A stretch of DNA of 52,063 bases from NCBI GenBank assembly GCA_947461225.1, contig CANHJV010000005.1, forward strand, positions 1 through 52,063, given 5' to 3'. This DNA is from Gemmatimonadota bacterium. GTDB lineage: Bacteria; Gemmatimonadota; Gemmatimonadetes; Gemmatimonadales; Gemmatimonadaceae. Each line of letters opens with the position of its first letter. Within the stretch, counting starts at the first letter, position 1. This document shows positions 7,080-28,925 of this stretch, one piece after another. The notes under the pieces are model-generated. The model ran no database searches, was not told the DNA's origin, and saw nothing but the letters and a program-made list of their open reading frames with translations. A program made the translations under genes and the position numbers.

Positions 7080-8462
7080 ATGACCTCACCTTCGGTTTCC
7101 TCGACCAGCACAAATTCCAGCGCCAGCACGGAATTGCCGCGTCGCTTAGGACTGTGGAGCGCCATCGCCGTCCTGGTCGGCACCACGATCGGCTCGGGAA
7201 TCTTCCGGTCCCCGGCTGGGATCGCCGACAAGCTCCCCGGCCCATTGCCCCTGATGGCCGTCTGGGCGACTGGCGGCATCTTCGCGCTCTGCGGCGCCCT
7301 GACTTTGGCTGAACTGGCCGGGGCGATGCCACGGACCGGTGGCTACTTCGTGTACATCCGCGAGGCCTGGGGGCGCCTGCCCGCCTTCCTCTATGGCTGG
7401 TCGGAACTCACCCTCATCCGGGCCGCGGCCCTCGGCGGCATCTCCACCACCTTCGCCGAGTACCTGCTGCGCGGACTCGGCTACAATCCGTCGCTGGCGC
7501 CATACGATACCTACGCGCATTGGATCGCCGCCGCGACGGTGGCCCTGATGGCGGTGATCAACGTCGTGGGGCTCAAATGGGGCGCGCTGGTGCAGAACTT
7601 CACCACGGTCGCCAAATATGGCGGCCTCATGCTGATCATTCTGCTCGCGCTCATTCTCGGTCTGCCGCAAACGGGTGGCCACTTCACGCCGGCCATGCCG
7701 CCCGGCAGCTTCTCCGTGTCCGCCTTCGGGCTGGCACTGGTGTCGGTGCTCTGGGCCTTCGACGGATGGGGCGACCTCAGCAAGGTGGCCGGTGAGGTGA
7801 AGGACCCCGAGAAGACGCTGCCCAAGGCGATCGTCCTCGGCACCCTCAGCATCATCTTCATCTACATTTTGGCGAACATCGCCTACCTGTCGGTGCTCTC
7901 GGTTGACGAGATCCGCGGCGCCCGGCTGGTGGCGGCCGACGTGGCCGAACGCCTGATCGGCCCGATCGGCGTTACGCTGGTCGCGATCACGGTGCTGCTG
8001 TCGACCTTCGGGTCGGTGAACGGCTCGCTGCTGACCGGCCCGCGCATCTTCTTCGCGATGGCCGACGATGGCCTGTTCTTCAAGAAGGTGGCGGCGGTCC
8101 ACCCGACCTTCAAGACGCCGTATGTGGCGATTCTGCTCACCGCCACGATCGCCATCGCGTTCGTGCTCGTGCGCACCTTCGAGCAGCTGGCCGACATCTT
8201 CGTAACGGCCTCGCTGGTTTTCTATATCATGAGTATCGGCGCGATTTTTAAGTTGCGTCGTCGCCCCGACTGGAATCCACCGGTCCGCACGCCGTGGTAT
8301 CCCTTGGTCCCTGCGATGTTCTGCCTCGGCACGCTGTTCCTCTTGGTGAACGCGCTCATGGACGACGCCCAGCGGGTGCCCACGCTCGGGGTATTCGGCG
8401 TGATTCTGCTCGGGGTGCCGGTGTATTACTTGACGGTTGGGAGAAAGGCCGCAAGACCCTAA
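7080..8462 (+). CDS. APC family amino acid permease
   Basis: The predicted protein has 460 residues and about twelve membrane helices. The first helix carries the amino-acid/polyamine/organocation (APC) consensus GTTIGSGIFRSPAGIA, with the unwound GSGIF segment that binds substrate. Later landmarks are GGYFVYIREAWG after helix 2, DGWGDLSKVAGEVKDPEKTLP in the middle (the family's E-[IV]-x-[ND]-P loop) and GSVNGSLLTGPRIFFAMA. The overall pattern is closest to the LAT-like exchangers, so amino-acid uptake or exchange at the inner membrane is likely. Specificity cannot be read from sequence. The N-terminal 20 residues are Ser/Thr-rich and cytoplasmic. The ATG at 7080 is supported by the -10 box at 7068-7073. 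It is a single-gene unit; the 3' end runs directly into the long hairpin repeat. Confidence 0.93.
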   Translation: MTSPSVSSTSTNSSASTELPRRLGLWSAIAVLVGTTIGSGIFRSPAGIADKLPGPLPLMAVWATGGIFALCGALTLAELAGAMPRTGGYFVYIREAWGRLPAFLYGWSELTLIRAAALGGISTTFAEYLLRGLGYNPSLAPYDTYAHWIAAATVALMAVINVVGLKWGALVQNFTTVAKYGGLMLIILLALILGLPQTGGHFTPAMPPGSFSVSAFGLALVSVLWAFDGWGDLSKVAGEVKDPEKTLPKAIVLGTLSIIFIYILANIAYLSVLSVDEIRGARLVAADVAERLIGPIGVTLVAITVLLSTFGSVNGSLLTGPRIFFAMADDGLFFKKVAAVHPTFKTPYVAILLTATIAIAFVLVRTFEQLADIFVTASLVFYIMSIGAIFKLRRRPDWNPPVRTPWYPLVPAMFCLGTLFLLVNALMDDAQRVPTLGVFGVILLGVPVYYLTVGRKAARP

Positions 8463-8467
8463 CTGCT

Positions 8468-8577
8468 AACACCTTAGGTAGCAGGGGGGAGGGGATCAGG
8501 GGGCAGGACGCAGGAACGGCGCGCCGTTCACCTGCCTCCTCTCCCCTGATCCCCTCCCCCCTGCGTGCTAGGGAGTT
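8468..8577. repeat. long hairpin repeat, solo copy of the 12-kb inverted-repeat family
   Basis: Two arms of about 47 bp (8468-8514 and 8530-8577) are inverted copies with a few mismatches. They flank a perfect 16-bp palindrome, GAACGGCGCGCCGTTC (8514-8529). The arm core gcaggggggaggg-atcaggggg recurs in the two arms that enclose the four-helix-bundle gene at 12.06-12.64 kb, and the outer ends carry the same ctaggga/gtt edge. This looks like a gene-less member of the same element family. It starts 6 bases after the permease stop codon and could also terminate transcription. Confidence 0.85.
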
Positions 8578-8613
8578 GGCCGTCGGGCGTGACCTCACGG
8601 TTACACCCTTCGG

Positions 8614-11980: not shown

Positions 11981-12008
11981 GCTGGGCGCTGGTGGTGGTG
12001 TAAGGAGA

Positions 12009-12034
12009 GCGGCGCCGGAAACGGCGCCGCTTTT
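12009..12034 (+). terminator. intrinsic terminator of Oar-like receptor gene
   Basis: There is a nine-base-pair GC stem (GCGGCGCCG / CGGCGCCGC) with a GAAA tetraloop at 12018-12021, followed by TTTT. It lies 28 bases after the receptor stop and just before the inverted-repeat element. Confidence 0.85.
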
Positions 12035-12058
12035 CCGTTGTGGTTGCTGGGAACGGCG

Positions 12059-12115
12059 AACTGCGAACTCCCTAGTAAGCAGGGGGGAGGGTATCAGGGG
12101 GCAGGAGGCAGGGGG
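12059..12115 (+). repeat. left arm of 57-bp inverted repeat
   Basis: The arm begins with aactgcgaactccctag, continues with the G-rich core aagcaggggggagggtatc and ends in caggaggcaggggg. Its reverse complement recurs at 12585-12641 with one mismatch. Confidence 0.95.
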
Positions 12116-12174
12116 ATGCGTTCGCGCGTTGCTGGCGGCGGGATTTCGGTGACACGGTTGTCGCGACGCACCGC

Positions 12175-12180
12175 TATCCT
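12175..12180 (+). promoter_or_regulatory. -10 box (TATCCT) for four-helix-bundle gene
   Basis: TATCCT ends 7 bases before the ATG at 12188, inside the inverted-repeat element. The gene therefore appears to carry its own promoter and to be leaderless. No convincing -35 was found. Confidence 0.5.
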
Positions 12181-12187
12181 CGGCGGC

Positions 12188-12574
12188 ATGCAAGATCCCG
12201 CCAACATCCACGCGTGGCATCGCGCGATTGCTCTAGCCGTGCGCGTGCACCGGATCAGTCGCGGTATCAAACGCACGCAGGCGCCAGGGCTCCGCTCGCA
12301 AATCGATCGCGCCGTGGACTCGATCCCCTCCAATATTGCCGAGGGCGTTGCTCAACCGAGTGCCGCCGACTGCGCGCGATTTCTCAGTTATGCGGTGTCG
12401 TCGGCCTTCGAAGTCGAAAGCCACCTCATTCTCGCCGACAAGCTGGGGCTCGACCTCGTCGGCATCGAGGAAGCACTCGACGAGACGCGCCAGATCCGCC
12501 GCATGACGTTCAGCCTGCGAAAGCACTACGTCGCGAAAGCGAAAGGCGAAAAACCAAAGGGGCGCGACAGCTAA
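12188..12574 (+). CDS. four helix bundle protein (S23/IVP, TIGR02436-like)
   Basis: The predicted protein has 128 residues and is all-helical. Family landmarks are the N-terminal W-x-x-A motif (IHAWHRAIALAVRVHRI), a central helix with QIDRAVDSIPSNIAEG, then FLSYAVSSAFEVESHL and a final helix with LRKHY. The IP-x-N-IAEG motif is diagnostic of 23S-rRNA-intervening-sequence proteins and their relatives, including the Avd accessory proteins of diversity-generating retroelements. These form homopentameric barrels that bind nucleic acid. No reverse transcriptase is nearby. The ATG at 12188 is supported by the TATCCT box. The Lys/Arg-rich tail (about 112-128) could contact nucleic acid. The gene is enclosed by a 57-bp inverted repeat, which suggests the protein acts on, or spreads with, that structure. 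Confidence 0.9.
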   Translation: MQDPANIHAWHRAIALAVRVHRISRGIKRTQAPGLRSQIDRAVDSIPSNIAEGVAQPSAADCARFLSYAVSSAFEVESHLILADKLGLDLVGIEEALDETRQIRRMTFSLRKHYVAKAKGEKPKGRDS

Positions 12575-12584
12575 CTGTCCACGC

Positions 12585-12641
12585 CCCCCTGCCTCCTGCC
12601 CCCTGATACCCTCCCCCCTGCTTCCTAGGGAGTTCGCAGTT
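12585..12641 (-). repeat. right arm of 57-bp inverted repeat
   Basis: This is the reverse complement of 12059-12115 with one mismatch. It begins 11 bases after the stop codon of the four-helix-bundle gene. Confidence 0.95.
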
Positions 12642-12666
12642 TGCAGTTCGCAGTTCGCAGTTCCTA
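12633..12666 (+). repeat. heptamer repeats at right edge of element
   Basis: Four imperfect copies of the 7-mer ttcgcag (one is tttgcag) run to ttcctag. They extend outward from the right arm to the mlaD stop codon. The left arm has a shorter related series (gaacggc, gaactgc, gaactcc) at 12051-12071. The TAG stop of mlaD on the minus strand lies at the very edge (12664-12666). Confidence 0.8.
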
Positions 12667-13551
12667 GAAGATCCTCAGATTGATGTACTTCTTCGGATTC
12701 TTCTTCAAATCCATCACCAGCGAATCCACCCGCAGCAGCAGCGTATCCAGGCGCGCGTACACCGCCGGATCGTTCAGCAGCTTGCCCGCCGTGCCGGTGC
12801 CGTTGCTCACCTTGTCGAGTACACCCTGCACCTTCACGTTCGTCTGCTTGAAGTCGCGCGTGAGCTGCTCGAGTTGCGCCGACGTGGCCTGCAGATTCTT
12901 GACCGTCGAATCTACCTTGGTGGAATCCACGCTGGCCAGCGTGCGCCGCACCGACTGCTGCGTGAGCGTGAGCTGCTTCGACTGTTCGGCCGTGACCGCG
13001 CTCAGCTGCGCCACGAGCTTCGTAAGATCGGCCACCGTCTGCCGCACATCTTTCACGCCGCCGCCTTCCACGAACTGCGCGCGCGTTTCGTCGGTGAGGG
13101 CGCGGATATTCAGCGCGATCGAATCGCCCTTGCTCAGCAACTCGGGGACGCCCGGTGAGCCGACGCCCGTGGGAATCGTGTCGCCGGCCGCCATGTAGCC
13201 CTGACGGCCGATGACCGGCGTGAGGGCAATCAGCTGGTCGCCGAAGATGCCGTTGGCTTGAACGGTGGCCGTGGTGCCGGCCGGCACCTGGTACTGCGAC
13301 TGCAGCTTGAGCGTCACGGCGATCGTGCCGTCGGGGATCAGGTCGACCTTGTTCACATACCCGACCTGTACGCCGGCCAGCAGCACGGGCTGTCCTTGCT
13401 TGAGGCCAGCGCCCCACTTGAAGCGGGCAAACATCGGATAGCCGCTGGAGAGGCCGCCACGGGCAATCCAGATAGTGCCGCCGATGCCGAGCACCGCGGC
13501 CACCAGCAGGAGCAGACCGACAAGCAGTTCGTCGCGTCGTTTCGTCGTCAT
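12664..13551 (-). CDS. mlaD: MCE-family lipid transport protein (MlaD-like)
   Basis: The predicted protein has 295 residues: one N-terminal membrane helix (about 9-29, LLVGLLLLVAAVLGIGGTIW), then a single MCE domain (about 37-120) with GAGLKQGQPVLLAGVQVGYV and GIFGDQLIAL, and a long helical C-terminal part (about 145-285) rich in Gln, Thr and Leu. MlaD-type proteins form hexameric rings on the periplasmic side of the inner membrane and carry phospholipids to or from the outer membrane. The long C-terminal helix could form a needle-like tunnel or a coiled coil. It lies 21 bases behind the MlaE gene on the same strand, so the two form a unit. No MlaF ATPase is present next to them. The 3' end touches the inverted-repeat element. 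Confidence 0.9.
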   Translation of the reverse strand: MTTKRRDELLVGLLLLVAAVLGIGGTIWIARGGLSSGYPMFARFKWGAGLKQGQPVLLAGVQVGYVNKVDLIPDGTIAVTLKLQSQYQVPAGTTATVQANGIFGDQLIALTPVIGRQGYMAAGDTIPTGVGSPGVPELLSKGDSIALNIRALTDETRAQFVEGGGVKDVRQTVADLTKLVAQLSAVTAEQSKQLTLTQQSVRRTLASVDSTKVDSTVKNLQATSAQLEQLTRDFKQTNVKVQGVLDKVSNGTGTAGKLLNDPAVYARLDTLLLRVDSLVMDLKKNPKKYINLRIF

Positions 13552-14364: not shown

Positions 14365-15449
14365 CAGGTCCGCACCCGATAGAGCAGCACGAGCGCGAAC
14401 AGCCCGCACGCCAGGTTGGGGACCCATGCCGCCATGTCGGGGGGCATGAGCCCCTTCCCACCGATCGCCTTGGTCAACTGAATGAGCACGAGAAAGAGAA
14501 TGGTCGTGGCCAGGCTGACCGCGATACCGTACGCGGCGCCACCGCGCTGTGAACTGGTCGCCAGCGGCGCGCCGAAGAGTGCAATGATGAGACACGTGAC
14601 CGGAATCGCCAACTTCAGCATCCGCTCCACGCGCAGCAGGTTCACGTCGGCCCCCGAGCGCTCGAGTGCGGTGATGAACCGCGACAGATCCGCGAAGTTC
14701 ATTTCACTCGGTTGCCGCTCGGTGGCCTGAAGTTCCTGTGGTTTCTCCGTGAACTGCCGGTCGACCAGGGAATCGAAGGCCACGGCGCGATCGGTAGAGT
14801 CGTTGGGGACCACATGCACCATCCCCGACTTCAGCACCCAACCGCGATTGTTGTACCACGACGCGCTCTTGGCCGCCACCAAGAGCCCGGGCCGCTTGAC
14901 CGACCCCCGCTCTTCGATTTCCATGTTCTCCACGAGCCGTGCCTTCACATCGAGCGTGTAAATCCGGTAGACGCGCCCCGTCTCGCTCGCGAAGGCGAAG
15001 TTGTAGCGATTGTTATCGCGGTCCTGACCCTTTCCCGCCAGCAGCTTGAGACGCTGGGCATTGGCTGGTGGCGCAAGCTCGGCGAACACCAGGTCGATCC
15101 CCATCGCAATCATGGCCATGAAGAGAATCGGCGCGATGAATCGGTAGAAGCTGATACCGGAGGCCTTGGCGGCGGTAATCTCCGAATAGCGTGTAAAGGT
15201 GCCGATGGAAAACACCGTCGCGAAGAGCACCGCCGCGGGAAGGACCATGAACAGCGTGTCGGGAATCCAGTACACGTAGCTCAGGGCGACCGCTTTGAAC
15301 GCCAGTTTGCGTTCGGTGTACTTGCGCAGGTTGTCGACCAGGTCGATCACGAACACCAGCACGGGGAAGCCCAGCGTCGTGACCGTGAAGATGCGCGTGA
15401 ACTCGGCCGCCACGTAGCGATCGAGCGGCGTAATGAAGCGACGGCTCAT
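14364..15449 (-). CDS. lptG: LPS export permease LptG/LptF-type
   Basis: The predicted protein has 361 residues: an N-terminal membrane helix after DRYVAAEFTRIF, two further helices with SEITAAKASGISFYRF (the conserved coupling-helix motif that contacts LptB), a periplasmic beta-jellyroll (about 130-265) and three C-terminal helices. It belongs to the YjgP/YjgQ family. With LptF and LptB it extracts LPS from the inner membrane and pushes it to the LptC-A-D bridge. The ATG at 15449 overlaps the stop of the upstream gene (ATGA). It is called LptG because it is the second, shorter paralogue; the F/G distinction is not secure. LptB and LptC are not in the window. Confidence 0.88.
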   Translation of the reverse strand: MSRRFITPLDRYVAAEFTRIFTVTTLGFPVLVFVIDLVDNLRKYTERKLAFKAVALSYVYWIPDTLFMVLPAAVLFATVFSIGTFTRYSEITAAKASGISFYRFIAPILFMAMIAMGIDLVFAELAPPANAQRLKLLAGKGQDRDNNRYNFAFASETGRVYRIYTLDVKARLVENMEIEERGSVKRPGLLVAAKSASWYNNRGWVLKSGMVHVVPNDSTDRAVAFDSLVDRQFTEKPQELQATERQPSEMNFADLSRFITALERSGADVNLLRVERMLKLAIPVTCLIIALFGAPLATSSQRGGAAYGIAVSLATTILFLVLIQLTKAIGGKGLMPPDMAAWVPNLACGLFALVLLYRVRT

Positions 15450-17143
15450 GCGCTCACCGCTGCGTTCGATCCGTTGCCTGCGGCTTTCGCGGCCTGTTCC
15501 CGCTTCATCTGTAGCGCCAGCGCCCGGCGCGCGCCGCGATCGGCCCACCAATCACGGAGCCCACCGCCGCGCGAGGTATCCGTCGTCGATTCCACCCGCC
15601 ACAAGAGCACCACACCGGCCAGCGTGAAGATGGCATTCGCGATCCACATCGCGATCGATGCCGGCACCATGCCCTTGTCGGCCAGCGCTTCGCCACCCAT
15701 CAAACAGACGTAATACAACCCGAACACGCCAATGCTCACGCCAATCGTCGCGCCCACCCCGCCGCGCGGAAACCGCAGCGCGATCGGCGGGCCGAACAAC
15801 ACGAACACGAAACAGGCAAACGAGAGCGCGAACTTCTTGTGGATCTCGACGGTGAGGCCGTCGAGTCCTTCACGTGACGCCACCAGCTGCGCATCGGCCG
15901 CGTTCATCGCGCCGCGATACACGGTGAGGGTGTCGGGCGTCGGCGGCAGCGGTGCTGCCGGCGCGACCGTGGGTGGCGTCAGCACTGCCGCGCCGAGGGT
16001 GTCTCTCAGGGTGTCTCTGAGCGTATCGCCCGCGGGCGTGACGGCGGGCGTGACGGCGGGCGTGACGGCGGGCGTGACGGCGGGCGTGACGGCGGGCGTG
16101 ACGGCGGGCGTGACGGCGGGCGTGACCACCGGCGCTTGCGGGGTGGGGGGCACGACGGGCGCCTGCGCCTTGGCTTTCTTGGGGAGAAAGAGCGACGGCA
16201 ACGTGACGCAATAGAAGCGCGCTAATCCTTCCTGAACGGGCCGGTCACGCGGCGCCCTGAGCGTCTTGGTGCCCGGTGCGACCAGTCGGCTGGCGTACAT
16301 GATGTATTCCTGCCGCACCCGCCGGAACTCCAACGCGTCGACGGCGTACCGCCGGTGCATTTCGCACACGGTCATCTCGCGGTCGCTGCGGAAATCATCG
16401 TTGCTGGTGCTCTCGAAGCCGCGCGTGATGCCGCGCACCTTCACGGTCTGATCCATGAAGAAGCTGCGCTGTAGCCGCTTGGGGTCACCGCGCACGAATT
16501 CCTGTGAGTAGCCGTCGAACAGCTGCAGCAGCAGGTCCTGCCCGTTCTTGGTCAGCGAGAACACGCCGCTGTCGGCGTAGATCGTCTTGCGCTCCGGCCC
16601 CTTGGTGAGATCGTAGATCACGACGTCGTACATCTTGTTCGTGTTCGCGTCGCTGCGGGCGATCCGCAGGAAGAACTGGTCCGTGACCGCATTCATTGCC
16701 TGGTCTCGCAAGGCGAGCGTCGGCTTCGTTTTCGCGATATCGTTCTGCAAAATGCGCAGTTGGTGGTTGGCGCGCGGCAGTACCTGATCGTTGAACGCGA
16801 CCATCGCGATCGACAACAGGAAGGCGCAGGCCAACACCGGCAGCATCAGGGTGCGGACACGCACACCACTCGCCTTGAAGGCGGTGATCTCGTGTTCGGC
16901 GGCCATACGGCCGAAGGTGAACAAGGTCGCCACGAGCACGGCCATCGGCATCGTCATCGCGATGGTGAATGGCAGCGAGAGGACGAAGAATTTGCCGATG
17001 GCCGACCAGGGGAGTCCCTTGCCGGCAAGGTTCGCGAGCTGGCGCGCGACGTACTGCAGCATAAGCAGCGACGTCAGCGCAGACAGCGCAAACAGGAGAG
17101 GTCCGACGTGCTCGCGCACGACATAGCGGGTAACAAGCTTCAC
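15446..17143 (-). CDS. lptF: LPS export permease LptF with repeat-bearing insertion
   Basis: The predicted protein has 565 residues, against about 360-400 usual for YjgP/YjgQ proteins. The first three helices include EHEITAFKASGVRVRTLMLP, the LptB-coupling motif. A periplasmic jellyroll follows, then an insertion of roughly 130-140 residues (about 290-425), and then the last helices (RFPRGGVGATIGVSIGVF). The insertion is Pro/Thr/Val/Ala-rich and holds eight tandem TPAV units (about 340-371) and a DTLR repeat. It is probably a flexible periplasmic linker, so repeat number may vary between strains. The start is a GTG at 17143 preceded by AAGGA nine bases away. It is the first gene of the lptF-lptG-mlaE-mlaD operon, 61 bases from the divergent sprA. 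Confidence 0.9.
   Translation of the reverse strand: MKLVTRYVVREHVGPLLFALSALTSLLMLQYVARQLANLAGKGLPWSAIGKFFVLSLPFTIAMTMPMAVLVATLFTFGRMAAEHEITAFKASGVRVRTLMLPVLACAFLLSIAMVAFNDQVLPRANHQLRILQNDIAKTKPTLALRDQAMNAVTDQFFLRIARSDANTNKMYDVVIYDLTKGPERKTIYADSGVFSLTKNGQDLLLQLFDGYSQEFVRGDPKRLQRSFFMDQTVKVRGITRGFESTSNDDFRSDREMTVCEMHRRYAVDALEFRRVRQEYIMYASRLVAPGTKTLRAPRDRPVQEGLARFYCVTLPSLFLPKKAKAQAPVVPPTPQAPVVTPAVTPAVTPAVTPAVTPAVTPAVTPAVTPAGDTLRDTLRDTLGAAVLTPPTVAPAAPLPPTPDTLTVYRGAMNAADAQLVASREGLDGLTVEIHKKFALSFACFVFVLFGPPIALRFPRGGVGATIGVSIGVFGLYYVCLMGGEALADKGMVPASIAMWIANAIFTLAGVVLLWRVESTTDTSRGGGLRDWWADRGARRALALQMKREQAAKAAGNGSNAAVSA
16032..16127 (-). repeat. 12-bp tandem repeat (8 units) inside lptF
   Basis: There are eight head-to-tail copies of gcgggcgtgacg on the plus strand, the last ending in c. 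In lptF they read TPAV repeatedly. Unit gain or loss keeps the reading frame. Confidence 0.98.
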
Positions 17144-28858: not shown

Positions 28859-28925
28859 GGTTCAAGGGGTCAGAGTCGTTGAACCGAGTCGTCGAACCCG
28901 TTCAACGACTCTGACCCCTTGAACC
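28859..28925. repeat. REP-like perfect 26-bp inverted repeat
   Basis: Arms 28859-28884 and 28900-28925 are exact inverted copies (ggttcaaggggtcagagtcg...) around a 15-base spacer. The core ggggtcagagtc resembles palindromes that I recall being dispersed near REP-associated (IS200-like) transposases in many genomes. No transposase gene is in the window. It may also reinforce termination after pilC. Confidence 0.85.

Follow-up and report, generated by a model that had tools for sequence, protein, structure and literature searches.

The element described here lies between protein genes in a 52,063-nt stretch of a Gemmatimonadota contig (CANHJV010000005.1), which was analysed whole and is called the window. 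Upstream is a gene presumed to be of the TonB type, and a gene that we take to be MlaD-like converges on the element from the other side. The element consists of an S23/23S-IVP family gene encoding 128 amino acids, enclosed by two inverted arms (Table 1). Upon recomputation, the arm cores 12059–12115 and 12585–12641 are identical at 56 of 57 positions, the figure given in an initial annotation of this DNA. The inverted-repeat score is 59, compared with a maximum of 13 over 500 mononucleotide shuffles of both flanks. The main feature of the arms, which the initial annotation missed, is that they are arrays of heptamers; the units in the window are diverged.

The IVP gene is the sole gene between the arms, as initially described, and no transposase gene is found there. 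The protein matches PF05635 (81 bits, E 6.6e-23) and TIGR02436 (90 bits), which bears out the proposed family. It also matches PDB 2gsc (protein XCC0516, E 1.8e-11) and has a pI of 9.7. A (G/A)TGACA...TATCCTC block recurs 5′ of the IVP gene in close relatives. The −10 box once assigned to the gene was not confirmed, because no sigma-70-type promoter was found. The element does lie just past a terminator-like hairpin; one such hairpin is seen, and shuffling gives a mean of 0.7. A scan of the window for Rfam families gave no match, hence no rRNA. With protein genes as neighbours, the S23 open reading frame between two arms thus represents the layout of an intervening sequence outside rRNA, as had been claimed.

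Elsewhere in the window, a 12-bp tandem repeat of about eight copies (16020–16151) lies in a minus-strand coding frame (15446–17143) and encodes a VTPA-type peptide repeat.

Table 1. Features of the element and of its context in the window
Feature	Position	Strand	Remarks
Left arm, core 12059–12115	12047..12115	+	Diverged heptamer array, AGG about every 7 nt
Left arm, outer part	within 12047..12115	+	GAACTGC-type units outside; 7-nt phase read directly
S23/23S-rRNA-IVP four-helix-bundle gene	12188..12574	+	PF05635, TIGR02436, PDB 2gsc
Right arm	12585..12653	-	Inverted copy of the left arm, 65/69 positions matched with 12047–12115
Outer GAACTGC-type heptamers beyond the right arm	12645..12667	-	Extend to the TAG stop (12664–12666) of the presumed MlaD-like gene
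Geneless copy of the same element	8461..8583		Arms 53 nt, loop 16 nt
Intrinsic-terminator-like hairpin (context, outside the element)	12004..12035	+	3′ of the presumed TonB-type gene (stop 11980)
Presumed MlaD-like gene (context, converging on the element)	12664..13551	-	Marker for the orthologous site

Geneless copies and the stem

The initial annotation proposed a search with the arm sequence in this and related genomes. In the genome of the window (264 contigs, 88.7% complete) the search yields 30 places, mostly geneless palindromes of ~124 nt, and the arms recur in relatives. The 30 places resolve to the window element, 13 geneless arm-loop-arm copies (one truncated at a contig end) and three single arms (one at a contig edge). 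Geneless derivatives are present in this genome. The geneless copy in the window shares its first bases with the TAA stop codon that ends the upstream gene (7080–8462). The two other IVP genes in the genome are also found inside inverted repeats, of different sequence, with arm lengths of 80 and 40 nt and matches of 84% and 85%, respectively. Geneless copies are more numerous than gene copies in this genome. This favours an explanation in which the arrays are independent REP/MITE or STRR-type repeats that are moved otherwise, and the IVP gene is their cargo or captor.

The predicted stem was assessed by covariation in 43 of 47 geneless candidates from this and related genomes; of the other four, one was empty, one was truncated where its contig ends, and two (L131 and one L244 copy) were left out by hand. 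Stem pairs changed on both sides number 23 of 54, a value reached by 3 of 500 shuffles. Double-change cells number 115, compared with 73.9 +/- 8.4 in shuffles (0/500 reach the observed number) and 13–49 in slid versions. The stem thus covaries across the 43 copies, but since these are related, and partly orthologous, copies that are not independent, the covariation is support and not proof. Predicted folding of three geneless relatives gives z values of -10.7 to -13.8.

The MlaD site in related genomes

With a cut-off of E 0.001, 14 of the 30 genus genomes contain the arm family, at as many as 42 places; it was not found in the other 16. The MlaD-like gene was located in 27 of the 30. An IVP gene is present at 12 of these 27 loci (own locus included; two partial, one inverted), as sought with the window protein alone, by which a very diverged IVP could be missed. 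In close relatives, two IVP gene types pair with two arm types, and four more distant relatives (G016, G021, G022 and G025) have other IVP genes at the site. With an IVP gene at fewer than half of the loci and at least two gene/arm types, the gene is neither constant nor constantly same-armed. Fixation of the gene with identical arms at this locus, which the initial annotation had named as the finding contrary to mobility, is therefore not what is seen in the genus. Inverted repeats were analysed at 25 of the 27 loci (L106 and L108, on cut contigs, were left out); some loci hold geneless palindromes, and seven have no inverted repeat scoring above 14. Three loci (L084, L090 and L095) comprise only 326, 268 and 192 nt of the site. 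Genomes G006 and G018 (L088, L096) have a common geneless palindrome of ~190 nt at the spot occupied by the IVP element in the window.

At the amino acid level, the IVP protein is under strong purifying selection in this clade, with dN/dS of 0.03–0.06 within a type and 0.12 between types. Synonymous divergence gives opposite orders for the two genes in two genome pairs: dS is 0.315 for IVP and 0.547 for MlaD between the window genome (G000) and G020, and 1.24 for IVP and 0.393 for MlaD between G000 and G029. Such discordance suggests replacement of the gene at the site and not simple descent.

Sites of geneless copies were compared by a search with their flanks, which covered 8 of 12 scripted sites (both sites on contig C113, L044 and L049 were left out). 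By hand count, the two flanks lie on a single contig in 33 site-genome pairs. In 30 pairs the gap is about 90–160 nt, the size of a copy, judged by gap length and not by single alignments. Two pairs, both in G015, have no copy-sized gap, and alignment shows that part of an arm is kept. In the one other pair, ~4.3 kb extra lies between the flank matches (G029:C1:5065391-5069678).

The element is old at the window locus, because dN/dS is low within a type and most of the tested geneless copies are common to relatives; across the clade of the window the element family is old, and most of it is inherited. No support was found there for recent mobility, and the two clean absences retain an arm remnant. 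These data bear on a second explanation, namely, that at this locus IVP is a non-mobile host gene, passed on vertically, whose hairpin serves regulation or processing. Strong purifying selection, the repeated occupation of the same site in the genus and the geneless copies common to several species are in its favour. Against it are the discordant histories of IVP and MlaD, the inverted orientation in one relative, and the presence of other palindromes, or none, in others.

Inverted arrays around S23/IVP genes of many phyla

The flanks of 125 IVP loci were compiled: 33 from the window genome and its relatives (3 own and 30 taken from a longer list), 12 from plasmids (out of 15 records) and 80 from public genomes. 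The last were the 80 top-ranking hits among 581 matches to a single motif and thus do not form a random sample; they span close to twenty phyla (hand count of titles) and include one archaeal bin. As the remaining loci were cut by contig ends, 124 loci entered the inverted-repeat test and 123 the period test.

At 73 of the 124 loci (own genome and relatives 16/32, plasmids 8/12, broad sample 49/80), inverted repeats exceed the 99% control level; the other 51 have no significant inverted repeat. The control consists of shifted placements at the same locus, where 2 of 214 score 15 or more. A cross-locus control was dropped, as it was contaminated by shared arm families. A periodic tract is present in at least one flank at 107 of 123 loci. 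Tracts of period 7 are found in 136 of 246 immediate flanks, compared with 26 of 924 control windows, and tracts of period 8 in 29 of 246 compared with 4 of 924. Periods 6 and 9 show no enrichment in the same flanks and windows.

The tracts have a common orientation and composition: reading inward, G exceeds C in 150 of 165 tracts, and AG is present in 135 of 165. The two arms of one element have units that differ by 0–1 letters in 49 of 59 cases, compared with 166 of 3422 between-element pairs (900 pairs unequal in unit length). Thus, the arms are inverted tandem arrays of 7-mers, sometimes 8-mers, with a unit specific to the element, and this anatomy recurs far above controls in many phyla. 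IVP genes of many phyla bearing such arms with unrelated units are unlike chance cargo, which argues against the cargo explanation.

Two ideas on the arrays themselves were considered. A G-quadruplex as the common feature was set aside because many units, e.g. GAGAGTT, AGTGGTT and GGTGTCT, have no runs of three G. Stop codons in all three frames are found in 26 of 64 arms read inward, compared with 11 of 64 when the arms are read outward and with 12% after shuffling; a stop-in-every-frame device is therefore an enrichment and not a rule. No match was found in phages. Of the 80 broad loci, 60 were scanned for RNA families and gave no rRNA hit.

Position at gene ends, and sites with and without the element

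The upstream arm lies, at its outer edge, at most 15 nt from the stop of a frame of at least 80 codons in 45 of 73 cases, compared with 73 of 1103 random placements, although part of this proximity can arise because the arrays contain stop triplets. The stop beside the upstream arm is TAG in 24 of 56 cases, compared with 59 of 331 elsewhere.

The genes nuoC and nuoD are adjacent in this order and are normally co-transcribed. Ten of the 80 broad loci (L152, L154, L162, L164, L168, L171, L175, L178, L194 and L207) lie just 5′ of nuoD, in the nuoC-nuoD gap of alphaproteobacteria. This gap is a repeated home of IVP elements, and the heptamers differ among copies. Across the ten loci, IVP identity is 51–89% and NuoD identity 75–98%. 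The copy in Rhizobium leguminosarum (L162) has a stop codon inside the IVP gene. IVP elements also lie between cas6 and cas4 in CRISPR operons of cyanobacterial plasmids (L139, L144); in another plasmid (L270), with 98.9% identity over the matching parts, this gap is occupied by different repeat-like sequence.

Plasmids of Nostoc provide sites with and without the element. At a spot 3′ of a TraM-like gene, in 9 of 17 matching plasmid records that were read, two have an IVP element, three have other repeats and four have nothing. At a second spot (7 of 17 records read), the element is present in three plasmids and absent from four. The empty form is TTCTAG-GTT-ATG, and the filled form consists of TTCTA, heptamer arm, IVP gene, heptamer arm and TTCTAG-TT-ATG. 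At a third spot, one gene further, a different IVP element is found in one of seven plasmids, and the preceding stop and following start are intact. Within a single strain, ATCC 53789, three plasmids differ in the presence of elements. Gene and arms arrive together and leave the neighbouring genes intact, because the empty sites hold no array. In one insertion, some 45 bp of the spacer seen at the empty site are missing. The Nostoc plasmid sites show no clear target duplication; TTCTA at the second spot and ATG at the third are on both sides, possibly a coincidence of the heptamer unit or of the start codon. On plasmid pNPM1 (L276), a shortened IVP gene is followed by a stretch with its own heptamer arrays.

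Thus, sequence comparison of sites with and without such an element in other bacteria supports mobility of the unit, as the initial annotation supposed; recent movement in the clade of the window is unsupported.

Helper enzymes and heptamer tracts without an IVP gene

Among 61 genomes, IVP is found in 52, Y1 transposase (RAYT) in 21 and reverse transcriptase in six. Of the 52 IVP-positive genomes, 31 have neither RAYT nor reverse transcriptase (hand count; many genomes are incomplete), so neither enzyme appears to be required. Both were rejected as a shared helper, and no shared enzyme was found among these two in the 61 genomes. Their distribution also argues against repeats that carry IVP as cargo. 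The same is true of the single RAYT gene of the window genome, which adjoins a different palindrome, TCAAGGGGTCAGAGTCGTTGAAC.

A 33-nt near-perfect palindrome (GGTTCAAGGGGTCAGAGTCGTTGAACC...) is found in the window at 28859–28925, at L051 and L035, beside the only RAYT gene found and on contig C113. It is a separate REP/RAYT family.

Cyanobacterial STRR sequences are heptameric intergenic repeats. In three of four cyanobacterial genomes, heptamer unit counts are 290/261, 51/30 and 284/235, and 0 in the reversed control. The first 20 listed tract loci represent eight distinct tracts. One of these adjoins an IVP gene and is the starting locus, L211; the other seven have no IVP gene beside them, and none of the eight is an inward pair under a strict pattern. 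In cyanobacteria, heptamer tracts are thus far more often without IVP than with it, as would be the case if IVP were cargo. Arrays described in Xanthomonas and Nostoc with no noticed gene, in the excerpted text of PMC4692102, are on the same side.

Relation to known elements

S23/IVP proteins date back to the early studies of 23S intervening sequences, and to our knowledge no function has yet been assigned to them. Intervening sequences with an S23 ORF occur in 23S rRNA of Leptospira, Coxiella and Brucella. The layout of stem, S23/IVP ORF and stem is common to these and to the window element, whose inverted arms are predicted to form the stem. The window element differs in that it lies between protein genes and has many geneless copies. 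Excerpts of one report show that RNase III excises the Coxiella intervening sequence and that tandem heptamers precede the S23 ORF in it, and record earlier ideas on mobility (PMC4990558).

Heptameric intergenic repeats also resemble the arms, with 7-nt units that are often G-rich and near stops. Two Xanthomonas genomes have 186 and 183 GGGAATC arrays, close to stop codons, with 70 and 75 convergent pairs; Nostoc has few inverted pairs and more stable surroundings of the repeats; and no general link of the GGGNATC repeats of these organisms with mobile elements is given (PMC4692102, in excerpt). The origin of the TAACTGA repeats of Beggiatoaceae is left open (PMC4679880, in excerpt). The IVP class has such 7-nt tandem units at gene ends, diverged in the window. 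What differs is the S23 gene, which is not linked to the repeats in the available text of the two papers, where S23 and helix-bundle terms have 0 occurrences (PMC4692102, PMC4679880). The accessible parts of PMC10910872, PMC4853749 and PMC3542288 contain nothing on an S23/IVP-heptamer link. Neither this link nor a free-standing IVP element was found in the portions covered of the open-licence literature, which includes few subscription journals.

PF05635 resembles Avd of diversity-generating retroelements (PMC10053308, in excerpt), but no reverse transcriptase was found in the window genome (88.7% complete). REP/RAYT systems share dispersed intergenic palindromes close to gene ends, but a linked Y1 transposase with the same palindrome is absent here, RAYT having its own. 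Insertion sequences and MITEs with a DDE transposase differ in that the window element has no transposase gene inside.

Interpretation

The unit in the window probably (about 0.7) belongs to a widespread class of very small mobile elements, each consisting of an S23/IVP gene and two inverted arrays of 7-nt, sometimes 8-nt, units. The element class is well supported. Sites and copies were compared, and no element copy was seen moving.

At the protein level, an IVP oligomer, which in a solved relative is a pentamer, may bind the hairpin of its own element in the form of either RNA or single-stranded DNA. Using host enzymes, IVP would promote insertion of a copy of the unit immediately 3′ of a stop codon. 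At the RNA level, arms read inward would often provide stop triplets and the transcribed stem could be cut by RNase III, so that an insertion within an operon or 23S rRNA would be tolerated. On this view, intervening sequences in rRNA would be the special case of the heptamer-armed S23 element.

A different role for the protein is rather unlikely, namely, that it protects or processes a stem-enclosed transcript and that the unit spreads by ordinary recombination between repeats. The covarying stem, the elements between normally co-transcribed genes (nuoC-nuoD at 10 of 80 broad loci, and cas6-cas4) and RNase III excision of the Coxiella intervening sequence (PMC4990558, in excerpt) are consistent with such a role. 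However, the Nostoc plasmid insertions are at single intergenic spots whose empty form has no array, and recombination between existing repeats therefore fails to explain them. A fixed host gene at the window locus is unlikely, and so are independent repeats with IVP as cargo or captor.

Beyond the mobile element class itself, one may tentatively propose that the S23/IVP four-helix bundle is the mobility factor, without transposase, recombinase or reverse transcriptase, and that it copies heptamer palindromes into gene ends. Many unexplained heptanucleotide repeats could then be its footprints, and the rRNA intervening sequences its best-known insertions.

The same arrangement in many unrelated bacteria suggests a widespread and overlooked form of small mobile DNA. 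S23/IVP genes and the intergenic heptamer repeats of Xanthomonas, Nostoc and Beggiatoaceae, for which no cause was given, are now tied together, and certain insertion sites can be read at single-base resolution. This opens a direct test of the role of the protein, and of the spread of a one-gene element without a transposase.
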